From: Gemmatimonadota bacterium
GTDB lineage: Bacteria; Gemmatimonadota; Gemmatimonadetes; Gemmatimonadales; Gemmatimonadaceae
Reading direction: 5' to 3'
Assembly: GCA_016182795.1 (NCBI GenBank)
Contig: JACPFW010000029.1
Span: 1-64,000, forward strand
DNA: 64,000 nt
The position numbers and the translations under genes were made by a program. The notes under the pieces were generated by a model. The model did not search any database. It was not told the origin of the DNA and saw nothing but the letters and a program-made list of their open reading frames with translations. Each line of letters begins with the position of its first letter. Within the stretch, counting starts at the first letter, position 1. Below are positions 9,288 through 61,934 of this stretch, in pieces.

Positions 9288-11096
9288 ATGTCGACCGAAG
9301 TCACGCCCACCGCAACCCCGCAAATGATCGAGCGTGAAAAGCGCATGGCCCAAAAGGCCGTCCTGCGCCCGCTCGCGAATCGCCGCCCCGAACTCTACGA
9401 GGAAGACGAGTACACGTCGTCCGACTATGAGGCGATGATGGATCTGTACAACGGGACGCTCGCTTCCATCGAGGAAGGCGAGATCGTCAAGTCCCGTGTG
9501 CTCGAGATCCGCGACAACCTCGTCGTGCTCGACATCGGCTTCAAGTCCGAAGGGTCGATCCCGCTCGAAGAGTTCAAGGACATGCCGGAGCTCAAGGCCG
9601 GCGACGAAGTCGAAGTGCTCCTCGAGCACCTCGAAGACCAGGAAGGCTCGGTCGTCCTGTCCAAGAAGAAGGCCGACTTCATGCGCGTGTGGGAGAAGAT
9701 CCGCGTCGCGTACGAGTCCGATCAGCCGGTCGAGGGCGTGCTCGTCAAGAAGATCAAGGGCGGCGTGGTCGTCGACCTCATGGGCGTCGACGCCTTCCTC
9801 CCGGGTTCGCAGATCGCGCTCCGCCGCGTCCCGAACATCGACGAGCTGCTCGGCCAGAAGTACGAGTTCAAGATCATCAAGCTCAACAAGCGCCGCCGCA
9901 ACATCGTCGTCTCGCGCCGCGTGATCCTCGAGACCGAGCGCGCCGGCAAGCGCGAGAAGCTGATGAAGGAGCTCCAGAAGGATCAGGTGCGGAAGGGCGT
10001 GGTCAAGAACATCACGGACTTCGGCGCCTTCATCGACCTCGGCGGCGTGGACGGCCTGCTCCACATTACCGACATGTCGTGGGGCCGCATCCAGCACCCG
10101 AGCGAGATGGTGCAGATCGGCATGGAGCTGGAGATCAAGGTCCTCGACATCGACTGGGAGCGCGAGCGCATCTCGCTCGGCCTCAAGCAGCTCCAGGCCT
10201 ACCCGTGGAAGGACGTCGCCGCCAAGTACCCGGTCGGCACGCGCGTCTCGGGCAAGGTCGTCAGCATCACCAACTACGGCGCCTTCATCGAGCTCGAGCC
10301 GGGCATCGAAGGCCTGGTGCACATCAGCGAGATGAGCTGGACGCGCAACGTCCGCCATCCCTCGAAGCTCGTCAGCATCGGCGAGGCCATTGAGGCGGTG
10401 GTGCTCAAGGTCGATCCGAACGAGGAGAAGATCTCGCTCGGCATGAAGCAGACCGAGCAGGATCCGTGGATGGTGCTGCCGCTCAAGTACCCCGTGGGCA
10501 CGCGCATTGCGGGCAAGGTGCGAAACCTCACGTCGTTCGGCGCGTTCGTCGAGATCGAGCCGGGCATCGACGGCCTGATCCACATCTCCGACATGTCGTG
10601 GACCAAGCGCGTCCAGCACCCGTCGGAAGTGGTCAAGAAGGGTGACTCGGTGGACGTCGTGATCCTCAACATCGACAGCGACAACAAGCGCATCTCGCTC
10701 GGCCTCAAGCAGGCCGAGGAAGATCCGTGGCTCAAGATCGGCGAGACCTACCCGGTCGGCACCGAGCTCAAGGGCCATGTGGTGCGCCTCATGGAGAAGG
10801 GCGTCGTCGTTGATGTCGGCAACGACATCGAGGGCTTCGTGCCGATCTCGCAGCTCAACATCACGGGCAACACGATCCAGAGCCCGGCCGAGATCGCGTG
10901 GGAGCAGATGGCGCTCGACCTGCGCGTGCTCGAGGTCGATCCGATCCATCGCCGCATCGTGCTGACCGTGACGAACATTCCGGAAGGGCAGGAGCGTCCG
11001 GCGGAGCCGTCCAAGGTGCACACCGAGGAAGGCGATGCCATTCCTGAGATCCCGGCCGACCTGTCGGCGGTGATCGAGGACGTGGACGAGGCGTAA
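9288..11096 (+). CDS. rpsA: 30S ribosomal protein S1
   Basis: 602 residues with six S1/OB repeats. The last four are easy to see by their repeated cores: TDFGAFIDLGGVDGLLHITD, TNYGAFIELEPGIEGLVHIS, TSFGAFVEIEPGIDGLIHIS and a degenerate final one, MEKGVVVDVGNDIEGFVPIS. The N-terminal two (about residues 60-215) have the S2-binding character typical of bacterial S1. The tail is acidic (IEDVDEA). S1 helps the ribosome bind mRNAs with weak or absent Shine-Dalgarno sequences. It has its own promoter candidate and terminator and lies after cmk as in many bacteria. Confidence 0.96.
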   Translation: MSTEVTPTATPQMIEREKRMAQKAVLRPLANRRPELYEEDEYTSSDYEAMMDLYNGTLASIEEGEIVKSRVLEIRDNLVVLDIGFKSEGSIPLEEFKDMPELKAGDEVEVLLEHLEDQEGSVVLSKKKADFMRVWEKIRVAYESDQPVEGVLVKKIKGGVVVDLMGVDAFLPGSQIALRRVPNIDELLGQKYEFKIIKLNKRRRNIVVSRRVILETERAGKREKLMKELQKDQVRKGVVKNITDFGAFIDLGGVDGLLHITDMSWGRIQHPSEMVQIGMELEIKVLDIDWERERISLGLKQLQAYPWKDVAAKYPVGTRVSGKVVSITNYGAFIELEPGIEGLVHISEMSWTRNVRHPSKLVSIGEAIEAVVLKVDPNEEKISLGMKQTEQDPWMVLPLKYPVGTRIAGKVRNLTSFGAFVEIEPGIDGLIHISDMSWTKRVQHPSEVVKKGDSVDVVILNIDSDNKRISLGLKQAEEDPWLKIGETYPVGTELKGHVVRLMEKGVVVDVGNDIEGFVPISQLNITGNTIQSPAEIAWEQMALDLRVLEVDPIHRRIVLTVTNIPEGQERPAEPSKVHTEEGDAIPEIPADLSAVIEDVDEA

Positions 11097-46553: not shown

Positions 46554-47597
46554 ATGCGCTGGAATCTTCCGTTCTTCAAATCCGGATCCCTGTTCCCTGC
46601 GAACGCGATCGCTGTCGATCTCGGCACGGCGAACACGCTGGTGTATGTGAAGGGTGAAGGCATTGTGTTGAATGAACCGTCCGTGGTTGCGATGGACCGC
46701 GAGACGAAGAAGATCAAGGGTGTGGGCCTCGAGGCCAAGCGCATGCTCGGCCGCACGCCCGAAGGCATCATCGCGGTGCGTCCGATGAAGGACGGCGTGA
46801 TCGCCGACTTCGACGTCACCGAAAAGATGCTGCGCTACTTCCTCGAGCTGATCATCGAGAAGCACGTCTTCCGCGTGAAGCCGCGCGTGATTGTCTGCGT
46901 GCCGTCGGGCATCACCGAGGTGGAGAAGCGCGCGGTGCGCGACTCGGCGCTCGGCGCCGGCGCCAAGGAAGTGTTCATGGTCGCCGAGCCGATGGCGGCG
47001 GCGATCGGCGTCGGCCTGCCGGTGGAGACGCCAACGGGCAACATGGTGATCGACATTGGCGGCGGCACCACGGAGATCGCGGTCATCGCGCTCAGCGGCA
47101 TCGTGAGCGACACGTCGATCCGCACCGGCGGCGACGAGATCGACACGAGCATCGTGCAGTTCATGCGGTCGGCGTACAACCTGCTGATCGGCGAGCCGAC
47201 GGCGGAAATGATCAAGATCCAGGTGGGCTCGGCGTCGCCGATGGGTGAAGAGCGCGAGATGGAAGTGAAGGGGCGCGACCTGGTGTCGGGCATCCCGAAG
47301 ACGGTGCGCGTGCACAGCGCCGAGATTCGCGACGCGATGCAGCAGCCGATCCAGCAGATCGTCGACGCGGTGCGTCGCGCGCTGGAGATCACGCCACCGG
47401 AGCTGGCGAGCGACATCGTGGACCGCGGCATCGTGATGACCGGCGGCGGCGCGCTGATCCGCGGGCTCGATGTCCTGTTGACGCAGGAGACGGGGCTGCC
47501 GATCCACGTTGACGAGGACCCGCTGACGTGCGTCGTGCGCGGCACGGGGCGCATCCTCGACGACGAAGAGAAGTACTGGTCGGTTCTCACCACCTAG
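46554..47597 (+). CDS. mreB: Rod shape-determining protein MreB (actin-like)
   Basis: 347 residues. Actin-fold ATPase: AIAVDLGTANTLVYVKGEGI (phosphate 1), MVIDIGGGTTEIAVIAL (phosphate 2), and GIVMTGGGALIRGLDVLL (adenosine). The N-terminal segment RWNLPFFKSGSLFP could be the membrane-binding region. First gene of mreB-mreC-mreD-mrdA-rodA, which directs elongation of peptidoglycan in rod cells. Confidence 0.96.
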   Translation: MRWNLPFFKSGSLFPANAIAVDLGTANTLVYVKGEGIVLNEPSVVAMDRETKKIKGVGLEAKRMLGRTPEGIIAVRPMKDGVIADFDVTEKMLRYFLELIIEKHVFRVKPRVIVCVPSGITEVEKRAVRDSALGAGAKEVFMVAEPMAAAIGVGLPVETPTGNMVIDIGGGTTEIAVIALSGIVSDTSIRTGGDEIDTSIVQFMRSAYNLLIGEPTAEMIKIQVGSASPMGEEREMEVKGRDLVSGIPKTVRVHSAEIRDAMQQPIQQIVDAVRRALEITPPELASDIVDRGIVMTGGGALIRGLDVLLTQETGLPIHVDEDPLTCVVRGTGRILDDEEKYWSVLTT

Positions 47598-47603
47598 CCG
47601 ACA

Positions 47604-48596
47604 GTGCCGCGCCCGGCACGCACATCCTCCCGCGCGGACCAGGCGATGCTCATCGCCTGCGTCGTGCTGTCGCTCGTCGCGCTGGTGCTGCCAACCGCGG
47701 TGCGCTCGACCGTCGCCGGCGCCCTGCGCGGTTCGGTCGTGGTGCCGCTGGCGGAGCTGCAGGAGCGCGCCGAGGTGTCGCGACGCGCGGTGCTCGCGTA
47801 CGACGCGTCGGTGCGCACCGCCGACAGCGTGCGCCTGCAGGCGTCGCAGGCCGAGGTGGTGTCCGCTGAGAACGAGCGTCTGCGTCGACTGCTTGGGTTG
47901 GGAGCGGCGCTCCGCTGGGGCTTCGTGCCCGCCGAGGCACTGCACGGTCGCGGACTGGGCGATGACTTCACCATGACGCTGACCGTGGGCCGCAACGAAG
48001 GCGTGGAACCGTTCAGCGCGGTGGTGGCACCCGACGGGTTGGTGGGGATGATTGAGCGGGTCGACGCGCGATCGGCGGTGGCCATCGTTTGGCCACACCC
48101 CGACTTTCGCGTGAGCGCGATGTCGGCGGACGGCACCGTGTTTGGGATTGTGTATCCGCATCTTGGCTCCGGCGCCGCGCGCTTTCTGCTGGAACTGCGC
48201 GGTGTGGCGTTCCGCAGTGAGCTGCGCCCCGGCACGCTGATTGTGAGCGCCGGACTCGGCGGCGTGTATCCGCGCGGCATTCCGGTGGGCACCGTGCTGC
48301 GCGAGATCAGCACGGCCGAAGGGTGGGCGCGCAGTTATCTGCTGCAGCCAGCCGTGCGGCCGGCCGATGCGACCGCCGTGATGGTGGTGCAACCGCGGCG
48401 CGCCAAGGAAGGCGTGGCGATCGCGTGGCAGGTGGCAGTGGACAGCGCCCTGCGCATGGTGGTGACGGCTGGCGATTCGCTGGCGCGGCGTCGTGCCGAT
48501 TCGCTGGCGCTGGCCGAGCGGCGGCGGCTCGATTCGCTGCAGGCGCTCCAGCCGCGGATCGACTCGGCGGCCGCCGCATCGAGGCCGCGGCCATGA
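47604..48596 (+). CDS. mreC: Rod shape-determining protein MreC
   Basis: 330 residues from a GTG 6 bases after mreB. One N-terminal transmembrane segment (MLIACVVLSLVALVLPTAV), a short coiled coil (about 60-95), and the beta-rich periplasmic region with FTMTLTVGRNEGVEPFSAVV, APDGLVGMIERVDARSA and PRGIPVGTVLREI. The C-terminal 70 residues are Ala/Arg/Asp/Ser-rich and not conserved. It links MreB to PBP2. Confidence 0.9.
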   Translation: MPRPARTSSRADQAMLIACVVLSLVALVLPTAVRSTVAGALRGSVVVPLAELQERAEVSRRAVLAYDASVRTADSVRLQASQAEVVSAENERLRRLLGLGAALRWGFVPAEALHGRGLGDDFTMTLTVGRNEGVEPFSAVVAPDGLVGMIERVDARSAVAIVWPHPDFRVSAMSADGTVFGIVYPHLGSGAARFLLELRGVAFRSELRPGTLIVSAGLGGVYPRGIPVGTVLREISTAEGWARSYLLQPAVRPADATAVMVVQPRRAKEGVAIAWQVAVDSALRMVVTAGDSLARRRADSLALAERRRLDSLQALQPRIDSAAAASRPRP

Positions 48597-49081
48597 ACGC
48601 CGCACGGGGGTTCTGGTTTACCGTCGTGGTGCTCGCGCTCATCGTGCTGCACTACACTCTGCGTCCGGTGCTCGACTGGCGCGCGTCGGTGGACTTCCTG
48701 GCCATTGCGGTGCTCCTCGTGGCGGTACGGGCGCGGCCGGGTATCGCAACGGCGGTGGGCTTCGCCATTGGCCTGACCGCCGACGCCATGACGCCCGAGG
48801 CGTTCGGGGCGGGGGCGCTTGCGTTCTGCGTGGTGGCCTACGCGGCCTCGTCGCTGAAGGCCGCGTTCTTTGCTGACAACCTGGCGCTCAACGCCGTCTT
48901 CGTCTTCCTCGGCAAATGGCTGAGTGATCTCATCTTCCTGGCGGCCGAACACCGGCTGGGCGCGAGCGAGTTCTTGGCGCAGGCCCTGCTGTGGTCGCCG
49001 CTGGCCGCGGCGGTGACGGCGCTGGCTGGACTCGCGGTGTTCGTTGTCGCGCGCCCCGTAATGGGGACGCCAAGGGGATGA
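48593..49081 (+). CDS. mreD: Rod shape-determining protein MreD
   Basis: 162 residues, five to six transmembrane segments, overlapping mreC by 4 bases. MreD family proteins are poorly conserved; DFLAIAVLLVAVRARPGIAT and FAIGLTADAMTPEAFGAGAL match the family's typical D-x-L and G-x-x-x-D pattern. Identification rests on size, topology and position between mreC and mrdA. Confidence 0.85.
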   Translation: MNAARGFWFTVVVLALIVLHYTLRPVLDWRASVDFLAIAVLLVAVRARPGIATAVGFAIGLTADAMTPEAFGAGALAFCVVAYAASSLKAAFFADNLALNAVFVFLGKWLSDLIFLAAEHRLGASEFLAQALLWSPLAAAVTALAGLAVFVVARPVMGTPRG

Positions 49082-50865
49082 GTTTCCATCCGAACGAGAT
49101 GCAGCGGCGCGCGCGGCTCGCCTCCGCGCTGCTGTTCCTTGCGTTCGTCTTCCTCGTGGGTTCGTTCTTCCGCACTCAGGTGCTGCAGCACAATCAGTAT
49201 GCGCTGCAGTCCGAGGAGAACCGTCTGCGCGAGGTGCCGCTCCCCGCGCCGCGCGGGGTGATCTACGATCGCCGCGGGCAGATTCTCGCCGAGAACCTGC
49301 CCGGGTACTCCGTGTCATTGCTGGCGCCGGGGGTGGATTCGCTGCGGGCCGCGCTGCAGCGGCTGTCGGGCACGATTCCGTTGTCGCCCGAGCAGATGAA
49401 TCAGGCGGTGCGCCGTTTCCGGCGCGCGCCCAACCGGCCGGCCGTGATCTTCCCCGATGCGTCGTTCGACGTCGTGTCGGTGCTTGAGGAGCATCGGGTG
49501 GAGTTCCCCGGCCTGATCATCCAGAGTTCGCCCAAGCGGTACTATCCCGACGGCCCGGCGATGGCGGCGTTCGTCGGCTACACCGGCGAGGTCAACGAAG
49601 ACGAACTCGCCAGCGCGACGTTCCGCGGCTACAAGGCGGGACAGCAAGTGGGAAAGGACGGGCTCGAGCGCCAGTACGAGCCGCTGCTGCGCGGGCGCGA
49701 GGGAACGCGATTCGTGGAGGTGGACGCCCGCGGCCGCGTGGTGCGCGAAGCCGGCGCGCGGCAGGACCTGCTCCCCGAGGCCGCCGCGCCGCTCTATACC
49801 AATATCGATCTCGACCTGCAGAAATACGTGGTGGAGCTGTTCGGCGATTCGCTGATCGGCGGCGTGGTGGCGATGGAGCCGGCGACCGGCGAAGTATTGG
49901 CGCTGCACTCGGCGCCGACGTTCGACCCCAACCGGTTCATTGGCGGCATTCCCGCCGATTACTGGCGGTCGCTGATGGACGACCCGCGGCGCCCGCTGTA
50001 CAACAAGGCGATCAAGGGCGCGTACGCGCCCGGCTCGACGTGGAAGCTGGCGACGGCGGTGATGGCCATTGGGCAGGGCGTTGCCACACTCGATGACCAC
50101 ATGCCGGTGGCGTGCACCGGCGGCTATCAGTACGGCAACCGGCGCTTCAAGTGATGGGACGCCAAGGGACACGGCAGCGTGTCACTGGCGCAGGCGATTG
50201 AGCTGTCGTGCGACGTCTACTTCTATCAGCTTGGCCTGAAGATCGGTCTGTCGCGGCTGGTGGCGGGCGGCGTCGATCTGGGGGCGCGCGAGCGCACCGG
50301 CATCGACCTCCCGTCGGAAACGCGGTCGTCGTTCCCGAGCGCGCCGGCTACCGAGTACTACAACCGTCGGTTTGGGCCGCGCGGATGGAGCAATGCGGTG
50401 TCGCTCAATCTCGCCATCGGGCAGGGGGAGAACGCGCAGACGGTCATCAACATGGCGCGGTTCTACACGGCGCTGGCGACCGACGGCAAGGCCGCCCAGC
50501 CGCGCATTGTGCGCGGCGAGAGCCACCGCACGCCGTTGTTCACGCTGACCGATGAGCAGATGGACGGAGTGAAGAAGGCGCTGGCCGGCGTCGTGCAGCG
50601 CGGCACCGCGGCGGCGTCGCAGATTCACGGGGTCATGCTCGCCGGCAAGACGGGCACGGCACAGTCGGGCCGGTACGCCGGATCGACCGAGCTGAACCAT
50701 GCCTGGTTCGTGGGATTCGCGCCGGCCAATGACGCCAAGATCGTGGTGGCGGTGATGCTCGAGTTTGGCGGACACGGCACCCGCGCGGCGCGCATCGCGT
50801 CGAAGATCATTGAGCATTACCTGAAGGTGCAGACGACGCAGGTGCTGAACACGGAGGGCGAATGA
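49078..50865 (+). CDS. mrdA: Penicillin-binding protein 2, interrupted by an in-frame TGA
   Basis: The frame from the ATG at 49078 (overlapping mreD) codes for all of PBP2: one transmembrane anchor (residues 15-35), the dimerisation domain (APRGVIYDRRGQILAENLPG), then the transpeptidase with PGSTWKLAT (Ser320, Lys323), the S-x-D/N motif SCDVYFYQ (Ser377) and AGKTGTAQ (Lys524). Codon 359 (50152-50154) is TGA; reading continues in the same frame with W-D-A-K-G-H-G-S. In many PBP2s of this type the sequence here is RxFxCW, so TGA replaces a Cys codon (TGC or TGT). The product would be 595 residues with read-through, or a 358-residue fragment lacking SxN and KTG without it. Mutation, sequencing error and recoding are all open. 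rodA overlaps the end. Confidence 0.85.
50160..50190 (+). other. Hairpin just after the mrdA TGA (SECIS-like spacing)
   Basis: CGCCA (50160-50164) with TGGCG (50186-50190) and GACAC (50168-50172) with GTGTC (50179-50183) enclose the loop GGCAGC (50173-50178). The loop GG falls 19-20 bases after the TGA, close to the spacing in E. coli fdhF as I recall it. The bases also encode the conserved KGHGS segment, so the structure may be coincidence. Confidence 0.3.
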
Positions 50866-52115
50866 GCGCGGCGCGGCGGCGGATTGCCGACCCAACGCTC
50901 GTGGCGCTGGCCATCGCGCTGTCGGTGTTCGGCATCGCGATGGTGTACAGCGCCGGCCAGACCGACGCGCCGACGGCGGTGGCCAAGCTGTATCGCAATC
51001 AGCTCGGCTGGTTCGTGCTTGGACTCGGCGCGGCGTACGCGGTGAGCCGCGCGTCGGTGCGGTTCCTCGACTGGGTGACGACGCCGGCGTACGCGGTGTC
51101 GTGCGTGCTGCTGTTCGCGCTGCTGTTCATCGGCGCGGGGGCGGGGACGGCGGCGAGCAGCAAGAGTTGGCTGGCCATCGGCGGCGTGCGGCTGGGCCAG
51201 CCGTCGGAGCTGGCAAAGATCGCGGTGGTGCTGATGCTGGCGCGCATCCTCGCGGCGCGGCGCGAGGCGCCGCGATCGCTGATCGACCTCTGGCAACCGG
51301 CGCTCGCCGTCTTCGTGCCGTGGGTGCTGATCATGCGGCAGCCCGACCTCGGCACGGGCATTGTGTTCGTTGGCATCTTCTTCGCCATGCTCTTCTGGGC
51401 CGGCGCGTCGTGGAAGCTGCTGGTGCTCGTCGCGAGCCCGGTGGTGAGCCTGATCCTCGCGTTCAGCACCGGGCTGTGGGGCGCGTGGTTTCTGGTGCTC
51501 ATCGCGCTGGTGCTCTGGTACAAACCGTACCTGGTGGAGGGCGTGGCGGTGGTGCTCGCCAACGTCGTCACCGGCGTGGTGGCGCCCGTGCTGTGGGACA
51601 AGCTGAACCCGTACCAGCAGAAGCGACTGCTCGTTTTCCTCGATCCGAGTTCCGACCCGCAGGCGTCGGGCTATCACGTGATTCAGTCGCAGGTGGCGAT
51701 CGGCTCCGGCGGCTGGCTGGGGAAGGGCTTCACCCTCGGGAGCCAGAAGCGGCTGGCCTTCCTGCCGGCGCAGCACACCGATTTCATCTTTCCCGTGGTC
51801 GGCGAGGAGCTGGGCTTTCTCGGCGTGACGATCGCGCTGGCGCTGTTCCTGTTCCTCCTGCTGCGGTCGGTGCGCATTGCGGCGCGATCTCCCGACCCGT
51901 TTCCGAGTCTCGTGGCCTTTGGCCTCGCGTCGGCCTGGTTTGTGCACATCCTTGTGAACGTGGGCATGACCCTGAACCTGATGCCCATCACCGGCATCCC
52001 GCTGCCGTTCTTCAGTTACGGCGGCTCATTCATGCTGATGTGCTGGCTGGCGGTGGGGATACTGGGGCGGATATCGAGCGAGGGGCGCGGACCGGCGGAC
52101 ATGCTTGTCATTTGA
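50862..52115 (+). CDS. rodA: Peptidoglycan glycosyltransferase RodA (SEDS)
   Basis: 417 residues, about ten transmembrane segments. SEDS motifs: WLAIGGVRLGQPSELAKIAV, RQPDLGTGIVFVGIFFAML, AIGSGGWLGKGFTLGSQKRL, LPAQHTDFIFPVVGEELGFL and PITGIPLPFFSYGGSFML. It polymerises glycan strands together with PBP2; its start overlaps the end of mrdA (ATGA). Confidence 0.95.
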   Translation: MSAARRRIADPTLVALAIALSVFGIAMVYSAGQTDAPTAVAKLYRNQLGWFVLGLGAAYAVSRASVRFLDWVTTPAYAVSCVLLFALLFIGAGAGTAASSKSWLAIGGVRLGQPSELAKIAVVLMLARILAARREAPRSLIDLWQPALAVFVPWVLIMRQPDLGTGIVFVGIFFAMLFWAGASWKLLVLVASPVVSLILAFSTGLWGAWFLVLIALVLWYKPYLVEGVAVVLANVVTGVVAPVLWDKLNPYQQKRLLVFLDPSSDPQASGYHVIQSQVAIGSGGWLGKGFTLGSQKRLAFLPAQHTDFIFPVVGEELGFLGVTIALALFLFLLLRSVRIAARSPDPFPSLVAFGLASAWFVHILVNVGMTLNLMPITGIPLPFFSYGGSFMLMCWLAVGILGRISSEGRGPADMLVI

Positions 52116-60650: not shown

Positions 60651-61934
60651 TCAGCCCTCGAAGAGCTTCTTGCGACGATTGTCCCAACTGCCGACCCAGC
60701 CGGGGAGTTCGTCGGGCGCCATCGGCTTGCAGATGAAGTATCCCTGGGCGTGATCGCACTTGTCGAGGCGCATGGCAGCCCAGTCGGCGCCGTCTTCCAC
60801 GCCCTCGGCGACCGTGCGCATGCCGATGCGGCGCGCCAGGTCGAGGCTCGAGTTCACGATGGCGCCGAGGATCGCGTTGCTGCTGGAGCCGTGCACAAAC
60901 GACCCGTCGATCTTCACTTCGTTGAACGGAAGGTCGCGGAGCTGGGCGAGTGACGACGTGCCCGTGCCGAAATCGTCGATGGACATCGTGATGCGGCGTA
61001 GGCGCAGCCGGCTGACGGTGGCGAGCGCCGCGTCCGGGTTCTGCGCGAACCGCTGCTCGCTGACTTCGAGCACGAGGTTCTTGGGCGGAATCCCGCTGCG
61101 CTCGAGCTCCTCGAACACGTAATCGGCAAAGTCGGTGCGGCCGAGGTCGTCCATGGAGACGTTCACGGCGAGGAAGAGGTCGAGGCCCGCGTCGCGCCAC
61201 GCATGCCCCTGCTTGAGGCAGGCACGGATCATCGCGCGCGTGATGTCGCGAATCAGGCCGCGCTCCTCGGCCACGCCAATGAACTGGCTCGGCATCACCA
61301 GGCCGTCGGTGGGATGCTGCCAGCGCGCCAGCCCCTCGACGCCGACGAGCGCGCCGGTCGACAGCTCCACGATCGGCTGGAAGTACGGAATGAACTCGCC
61401 ATGCAGCACCGCGCGCGCCACCTCCTCACCGGGATACTGCTTGGGGGCCGACGCCACCGAGGCCGGCGCTTCCCAACGCTCGAGCACTGCGCGCAGCTCC
61501 GTCGGCCAGACGGGCTTGGGCACGGAGCCAAGGATCTTGAGGTGCTGCGAGGCTCCGAACCGCGCGGCGGTCTCGATCAGCCGCTCGTCCTCGCCGCTGA
61601 CAAGCACCACCGGGATTTCGGCGCGCCGTTCGGCGAGGAGTTTCAGGAAGGCGATGCCGTCCACGCCCGGCATGTTCAGGTCCAGCATGATGAGACCGAT
61701 CGAGCGATTGGGCGCGTTGAGCGCGCTCAGCGCGGCTCCCGCTGAACTGCATCCGAGCAGCTGCTTGTACCCCAGTGAATTCAGGGTGCGTGCCAGCAGT
61801 TTGAGCTGAAGCGGATCGTCGTCGAGGAGCAGGATCTCGGTCACTGAATCATCCGGGGCAGTAGTCAAACCATCTACGGGCTCTCGGGTCTTGTGCCTCC
61901 TGTGCGCGGCACCGCGCACAGTGCCTGTAAGCAT
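60651..61934 (-). CDS. Receiver-EAL response regulator (c-di-GMP phosphodiesterase)
   Basis: About 427 residues from the ATG at 61934; later GTGs near 61919 or 61844 are possible and would trim the basic N-terminus. The receiver domain (about 30-150) has EILLLDDDPLQLK, the phospho-Asp in LIMLDLNMPGVDGI, and VVLVSGEDE. The EAL domain (about 165-410) keeps the catalytic set: VGVEGLARW (EGL in place of EAL), LAVNVSMDD, LVLEVSEQ, SIDDFGTGTS, VKIDGSFV, AEGVED and QGYFICKPM. No GGDEF domain, so a degrader of c-di-GMP controlled by phosphorylation. The cognate kinase is not in the window. Its stop lies 9 bases from the convergent guaA stop. Confidence 0.88.
   Translation of the reverse strand: MLTGTVRGAAHRRHKTREPVDGLTTAPDDSVTEILLLDDDPLQLKLLARTLNSLGYKQLLGCSSAGAALSALNAPNRSIGLIMLDLNMPGVDGIAFLKLLAERRAEIPVVLVSGEDERLIETAARFGASQHLKILGSVPKPVWPTELRAVLERWEAPASVASAPKQYPGEEVARAVLHGEFIPYFQPIVELSTGALVGVEGLARWQHPTDGLVMPSQFIGVAEERGLIRDITRAMIRACLKQGHAWRDAGLDLFLAVNVSMDDLGRTDFADYVFEELERSGIPPKNLVLEVSEQRFAQNPDAALATVSRLRLRRITMSIDDFGTGTSSLAQLRDLPFNEVKIDGSFVHGSSSNAILGAIVNSSLDLARRIGMRTVAEGVEDGADWAAMRLDKCDHAQGYFICKPMAPDELPGWVGSWDNRRKKLFEG

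Follow-up and report, generated by a model that had tools for sequence, protein, structure and literature searches.

The window (the whole stretch of 64,000 nt that was analysed) belongs to the assembled genome of an uncultured bacterium (3.13 Mb, 93% complete) and carries on its plus strand the genes mreB (46554..47597), mreC (47604..48596, with NCBIfam MreC scores below the model cut-offs), mreD (48593..49081), mrdA (49078..50865) and rodA (50862..52115). The mrdA gene codes for PBP2, a class B penicillin-binding protein (PBP) and DD-transpeptidase, and has 595 codons when codon 359 is read through. Its frame runs uninterrupted from 49078 as far as the true stop, a TGA at 50863-50865 on the plus strand which overlaps the start of rodA, but for one in-frame TGA, codon 359 (50152..50154, plus strand), a candidate selenocysteine (Sec) codon at a predicted zinc-ligand position. 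Apart from this TGA the mreB-mreC-mreD-mrdA-rodA cluster is intact.

The read-through protein scored 555.7 bits against the PBP2/MrdA equivalog model (cut-off 455) and matched both Pfam domains of class B PBPs, the dimerisation and the transpeptidase domain. When the two parts around the TGA were scored separately, they gave 347 and 170.4 bits with the same model and matched adjoining positions of it (1-345 and 356-592). Homologous coding sequence, one of the marks by which selenoproteins are recognised, is thus found on both sides of the in-frame UGA, and the statement of the preliminary description that PBP2 is complete on both sides of codon 359 in one frame holds. The SxxK, SxN/D and KTGT motifs together with the mre-rodA context identify the protein as a member of PBP2/MrdA. 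The catalytic Ser320 of the SxxK motif (50035..50037, plus strand) lies upstream of the TGA, while SxN/D and KTGT lie downstream, and termination would part them.

In order to see what relatives carry at this position, codon 359 was followed across 41 homologues of the family, namely the 30 loci with the highest scores, that of the window among them, and 11 loci flagged for a stop; a match was obtained in 166 of the 179 family genomes. A Cys at the UGA position of homologues, a further selenoprotein criterion, was found in 39 of the 41, with Asp in one, and TGA only in the mrdA studied here. The TGA stands where relatives have R-x-F-x-C-W or a similar sequence, 13 residues after Cys346, as described before. 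It is also one base away from TGC, the codon present in all 8 congeners having PBP2, whose PBP2 proteins are 86-91% identical to the one studied here. The congeners without a PBP2 match (G124 and G127) contained only paralogues of 29-30% identity. Relatives with Cys and no TGA had been named beforehand as a sign against recoding, and this is the state of all relatives read, the single Asp set aside. Since a recent Cys-to-Sec replacement would look alike, the Cys of the relatives leaves the case a singleton and does not reject it.

The position can be given a probable function by comparison with A. baumannii PBP2, in the crystal structure of which Asp350, Asp365, His371 and Cys384 coordinate a zinc ion 10.2 Å from the catalytic serine, and in which mutations of the zinc site lead to the loss of rod shape (PMC9974482). 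In the alignment to PBP2 chains, with the A. baumannii residue numbers counted from the residues named in that paper, codon 359 falls on the ligand Asp365. The other three positions, all on the plus strand, are occupied by Cys346 (50113..50115; first ligand position, Asp350 of A. baumannii), His365 (50170..50172; third position, His371) and Cys378 (50209..50211; fourth position, Cys384, the x of SxN/D), and each of these residues is the same in 41 of 41 homologues. The x5-H-x12-C spacing after codon 359 equals the D-x5-H-x12-C of the A. baumannii protein (PMC9974482). Thus the four zinc-ligand positions around SxN/D are predicted to be present in PBP2, provided that codon 359 gives Cys or Sec; in that case residues 346, 359 and 378 are the sole three cysteines (or Sec) of the protein. 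This putative zinc-ligand role of codon 359 is an addition to the preliminary description. In one PBP2 of the family (locus L035, genome G132) the second ligand position is occupied by Asp, as in A. baumannii, so Cys and Asp are exchanged within one family.

Similar sites are known from other class B PBPs. SpoVD and PBP3 of C. difficile have two Cys at the first two ligand positions, it is stated that Asp and Cys can stand in for each other there, and a redox sensor has been speculated for the zinc site (PMC9334274). For the corresponding Cys motif of B. subtilis SpoVD, a substrate of the thiol oxidoreductase StoA, a disulphide is predicted (as reported in PMC9334274). The B. subtilis protein differs in being a sporulation PBP of a Firmicute with no selenium, and the present PBP2 is set apart from the zinc-containing proteins (A. 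baumannii PBP2 and C. difficile PBP2, PBP3 and SpoVD) by a second ligand position encoded by TGA and by a zinc site that is predicted from the alignment.

The in-frame TGA could be a true nonsense mutation, fixed or segregating, which would cut PBP2 to 358 residues without function, so that the cell either lives without PBP2 or has acquired the mutation recently. TGA serves as an ordinary stop codon in this genome, and mrdA itself ends with it. Loss of rod shape can occur in some bacteria. However, since the TGA falls between SxxK and the SxN/D and KTGT motifs, the truncated product should be inactive; PBP2 is single-copy, no second one being present in the genome at E<=1e-80, and its partners mreB, mreC, mreD and rodA are intact. 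Selection downstream of the TGA is not relaxed either: dN/dS was 0.12-0.19 in comparison with the congeners and 0.11-0.21 in the control pairs, thus the frame has not decayed. Together with the coincidence of the stop with a zinc-ligand Cys, these observations make a nonsense mutation improbable.

Still less credit can be given to a near-cognate tRNA or a changed code that would insert Trp or Cys without selenium, or to two separate chains made by a restart at the GTG at 50179. The frame does resume without loss and the GTG lies 24 bases further on, but TGA terminates mrdA itself and therefore has not been reassigned globally. The restarted product would be without SxxK, and no split PBP2 occurs among the 41 homologues. 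We consider both of these very unlikely.

The preliminary description had named the absence of selenocysteine machinery as a ground for rejecting recoding. The opposite was found, as selA, selB, selD and selC (tRNA-Sec) are all in the genome, which is another of the selenoprotein criteria. The scores were 542.9 bits for selA, 311 bits for selB (over its cut-off), 367.3 bits for selD (over its cut-off) and 74.1 bits for tRNA-Sec (cut-off 47), and the 633-residue ORF of selB contains the EF-Tu domains, the SelB beta-barrel and two winged helices. The selD gene (9867-10904 of another contig, L069, G000:C16) has its own in-frame TGA at 9921, accompanied by a strong hairpin. It is located directly upstream of the tRNA-Sec gene (10921-11013, an Rfam match), 17 bases separating its end from the latter. 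A plain ORF call starts this selD too late, at the ATG at 9933. The genus is represented by 11 genomes, in which 7 selD genes were found, and every one of these has the in-frame TGA and the same hairpin. A selA match was obtained in 10 of these 11 genomes, and in the family selA is over the cut-off in 105 of 179. Since the full machinery and a TGA-bearing selD are present and selA is common in the genus, it is very probable that UGA is read as Sec in this lineage. In the family as a whole the Sec trait is patchy, selA being absent from many near-complete genomes (for example those of genera g8 and g9). Formate dehydrogenase was considered as a second Sec client, and its alpha subunit (G000:C13:24102-26336; TIGR01591 over the cut-off) has no internal stop, thus the protein that usually is the chief Sec client lacks Sec in this genome. 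In the parts of the genome searched, selD was the only selenoprotein gene found.

The two-part stem with a GG loop at SECIS-like spacing, noted before behind the TGA, was confirmed as a candidate SECIS-like stem-loop at 50160..50190 on the plus strand. The outer stem (50160-50164/50186-50190) is supplemented by the pair 50166-50185, and the inner stem (50168-50173/50178-50183) closes the loop 50174-50177. The loop is GCAG, or GGCAGC if the closing G-C pair is opened, and the GG is found at +19/+20 after the TGA, the same register as in E. coli fdhF (+19/+20) and one position from that of the selD genes of the genus (+18/+19). The published bSECIS model asks for a loop of 3-9 nt with G in the first two positions, an upper stem of 4-16 bp, a distance of 16-37 nt from the UGA and an MFE <= -7.5 (PMC13188914). 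The hairpin agrees with this model on all four points, having a loop of 4 nt with G in the first position, an upper stem of 6 bp, a distance of 19 nt and a folding energy of -18.0 kcal/mol. The latter value belongs to the stretch 50155-50196, with a z of -2.23, and 5 of 200 shuffled sequences folded as well; for comparison, the selD element gave -17.9 with a z of -1.34, and the stretch after the real TGA stop of PBP2 a z of +0.38. Among the 41 homologues the energy is the lowest, the next value being -16.3, and those of the congeners range from -6.8 to -13.7. The Rfam scan of the 64,000-nt window gave no match.

The weight of this agreement depends on how often such a structure appears elsewhere. 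In the same genome, 67 of 295 Cys codons in genes fit the bSECIS model, 23 of them at equal or lower energy, and the corresponding values for random codons were 1978 and 642 (about 8%) of 8000. With a looser criterion of our own, 17 of 296 Cys codons and 1281 of 20000 codons qualified, as did 3009 of 20000 sequences that encode the same peptide with synonymous codons. Equal hairpins are thus not rare in this GC-rich genome and the bSECIS match is unspecific. The loose bSECIS model is also fitted by 7 of the 8 congeners with Cys, therefore the hairpin is largely inherited coding sequence. When as many random substitutions as there are observed differences were placed in the congener stretches, with codon constraint ignored, -18.0 was reached in 19 to 103 of 3000 trials. 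The 14 codons (42 nt) after the TGA contain 3 sites private to the species, which is no enrichment (at least as many were present in 103 of 581 windows); two of the three complete stem pairs, and the congener letters at these sites weaken the energy from -18.0 to -12.2. Altogether the hairpin goes only moderately beyond chance.

The position of the TGA, on the other hand, goes strongly beyond chance. The Cys form of the gene allows 174 one-base changes that create a stop, and only 3 of them are on a Cys codon. This bears on the possibility that the organism has Cys and that the assembly carries a wrong third base in codon 359, as a result of a consensus or base-call error. A stop created at random falls on Cys in 3 of the 174 ways, here moreover in a Sec-decoding genome and with a suitable hairpin behind it. 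In addition, the comparison of the whole 111.6-kb contig with the congener G128 (61 matched genes, approx. 23,500 aligned residues), in which over-long N-termini, unsupported frames and one antisense frame were set aside, revealed no other internal stop or frameshift. The antisense frame concerns a second Cys-to-TGA change on the contig, at 61807-61809 of the window, in a frame similar to a frame of G128. It was rejected as non-coding, since it runs on the strand opposite to a minus-strand gene of the response-regulator/EAL type (a label given from reading the sequence), upstream of a transporter gene.

In favour of an error stand the single base that separates the codon from the TGC of all 8 congeners, the frequency of equal hairpins in the genome, and the fact that the TGA is a singleton among all genomes searched. 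In the pattern search of the phylum a TGA in PBP2 was found in one genome of 395, the one studied here. The pattern of a TGA-bearing PBP2 matched 11 times in 84,980 species genomes, none of the matches being in a PBP2 frame; the genome of the window is possibly missing from this collection, and part of the motif was held constant in the pattern. Other PBP2 genes that appeared to bear a TGA (L074-L084 and L037-L039) had either their own terminal stop or, on re-alignment, no stop, and in further flagged rows (G017, G039, G040 and G041, among the matches listed) the alignments reach residue 596, i.e. the terminator. Selenoproteins are also expected to have the UGA in two or more different sequences. 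This was not found, and with the UGA in one genome only, PBP2 has the rank of a candidate and not of an established selenoprotein. This follows published practice, by which a selenoprotein known from a single sequence is filed as a candidate, since a sequencing error could produce the same picture (PMC1088965). A wrong base in the assembly accordingly has a considerable probability, though a lesser one than recoding.

It is known that rare selenoproteins usually arise by Cys-to-Sec replacement in genomes that decode Sec (PMC1794560). We somewhat favour this reading, by which PBP2 became a selenoprotein in this species only recently, with UGA 359 recoded as selenocysteine, although Sec would be unusual in the place of a zinc-ligand Cys, which counts against recoding. 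What we infer is a TGA that the organism's DNA really carries, its decoding as Sec, and a zinc/thiol site made up of Sec359, Cys346, His365 and Cys378 beside the active-site serine, as in other class B PBPs. Recoding and error or mutation, the alternatives set out in the preliminary description, are those which have to be weighed, while its ranking of error or mutation in the first place is not upheld. We rank recoding slightly above error, the weights being set by judgement.

In several features the candidate resembles the bacterial selenoproteins SelD and FdhF, namely in the in-frame TGA at a Cys position, in the adjoining stem-loop whose loop begins with G, in the complete set of selA, selB, selC and selD, and in the loop register equal to that of E. 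coli fdhF. It differs from them in being drawn from a single sequence, and it is neither a thioredoxin-fold nor a UxxC/CxxU protein. In the open-licence literature no report was found of selenocysteine with a peptidoglycan transpeptidase, and, judged by the titles of the papers listed, neither a penicillin-binding protein as selenoprotein nor anything on selenocysteine as zinc ligand that bears on PBP2. A 2026 review covers 119 prokaryotic selenoprotein families and subfamilies; the words penicillin, transpeptidase and peptidoglycan are absent from the available part of its text, which mentions for a few other families that Sec may be a ligand of a metal (PMC13188914).

If UGA 359 is recoded, the following course of events can be proposed, in which the assignment of the ligands comes from alignment and we infer all later steps. 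A TGC cysteine codon would have changed to TGA in the recent ancestry of the species, and the hairpin just downstream would recruit SelB with Sec-tRNA for the insertion of selenocysteine at residue 359. Sec359 would then be the second ligand of a predicted zinc site bracing the SxN/D motif. As long as zinc is bound, Sec359 would serve as a structural ligand; upon oxidation it may form a Se-S bond with Cys346 or Cys378 and the zinc would be released. The easier reduction of the Se-S bond would make this a quickly reversible switch. The more reactive selenolate may therefore serve either to hold the zinc or to provide a faster and more reversible redox switch on wall elongation. The chances seem to us evenly balanced that Sec replaces a zinc-ligand or redox Cys in the elongasome transpeptidase PBP2, and that redox state or selenium supply governs wall elongation via a Se-zinc site about 10 Å from the catalytic serine (a distance taken from the A. 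baumannii protein).

Should the recoding prove false, the case would illustrate well the ease with which a single wrong base can mimic a selenoprotein when the genome is GC-rich and decodes Sec. Should it prove true, PBP2 would be the first selenoprotein known to us in peptidoglycan synthesis, located at a suspected zinc/redox switch; two structural papers name this site as a zinc site and suspected redox or oxygen sensor. It would represent a very early stage in the replacement of Cys by Sec (the 8 congeners that have PBP2 all still carry TGC), with a hairpin built mostly from sequence already present in the relatives, and Sec359 would offer a natural test of whether the zinc site of this transpeptidase is a redox switch.
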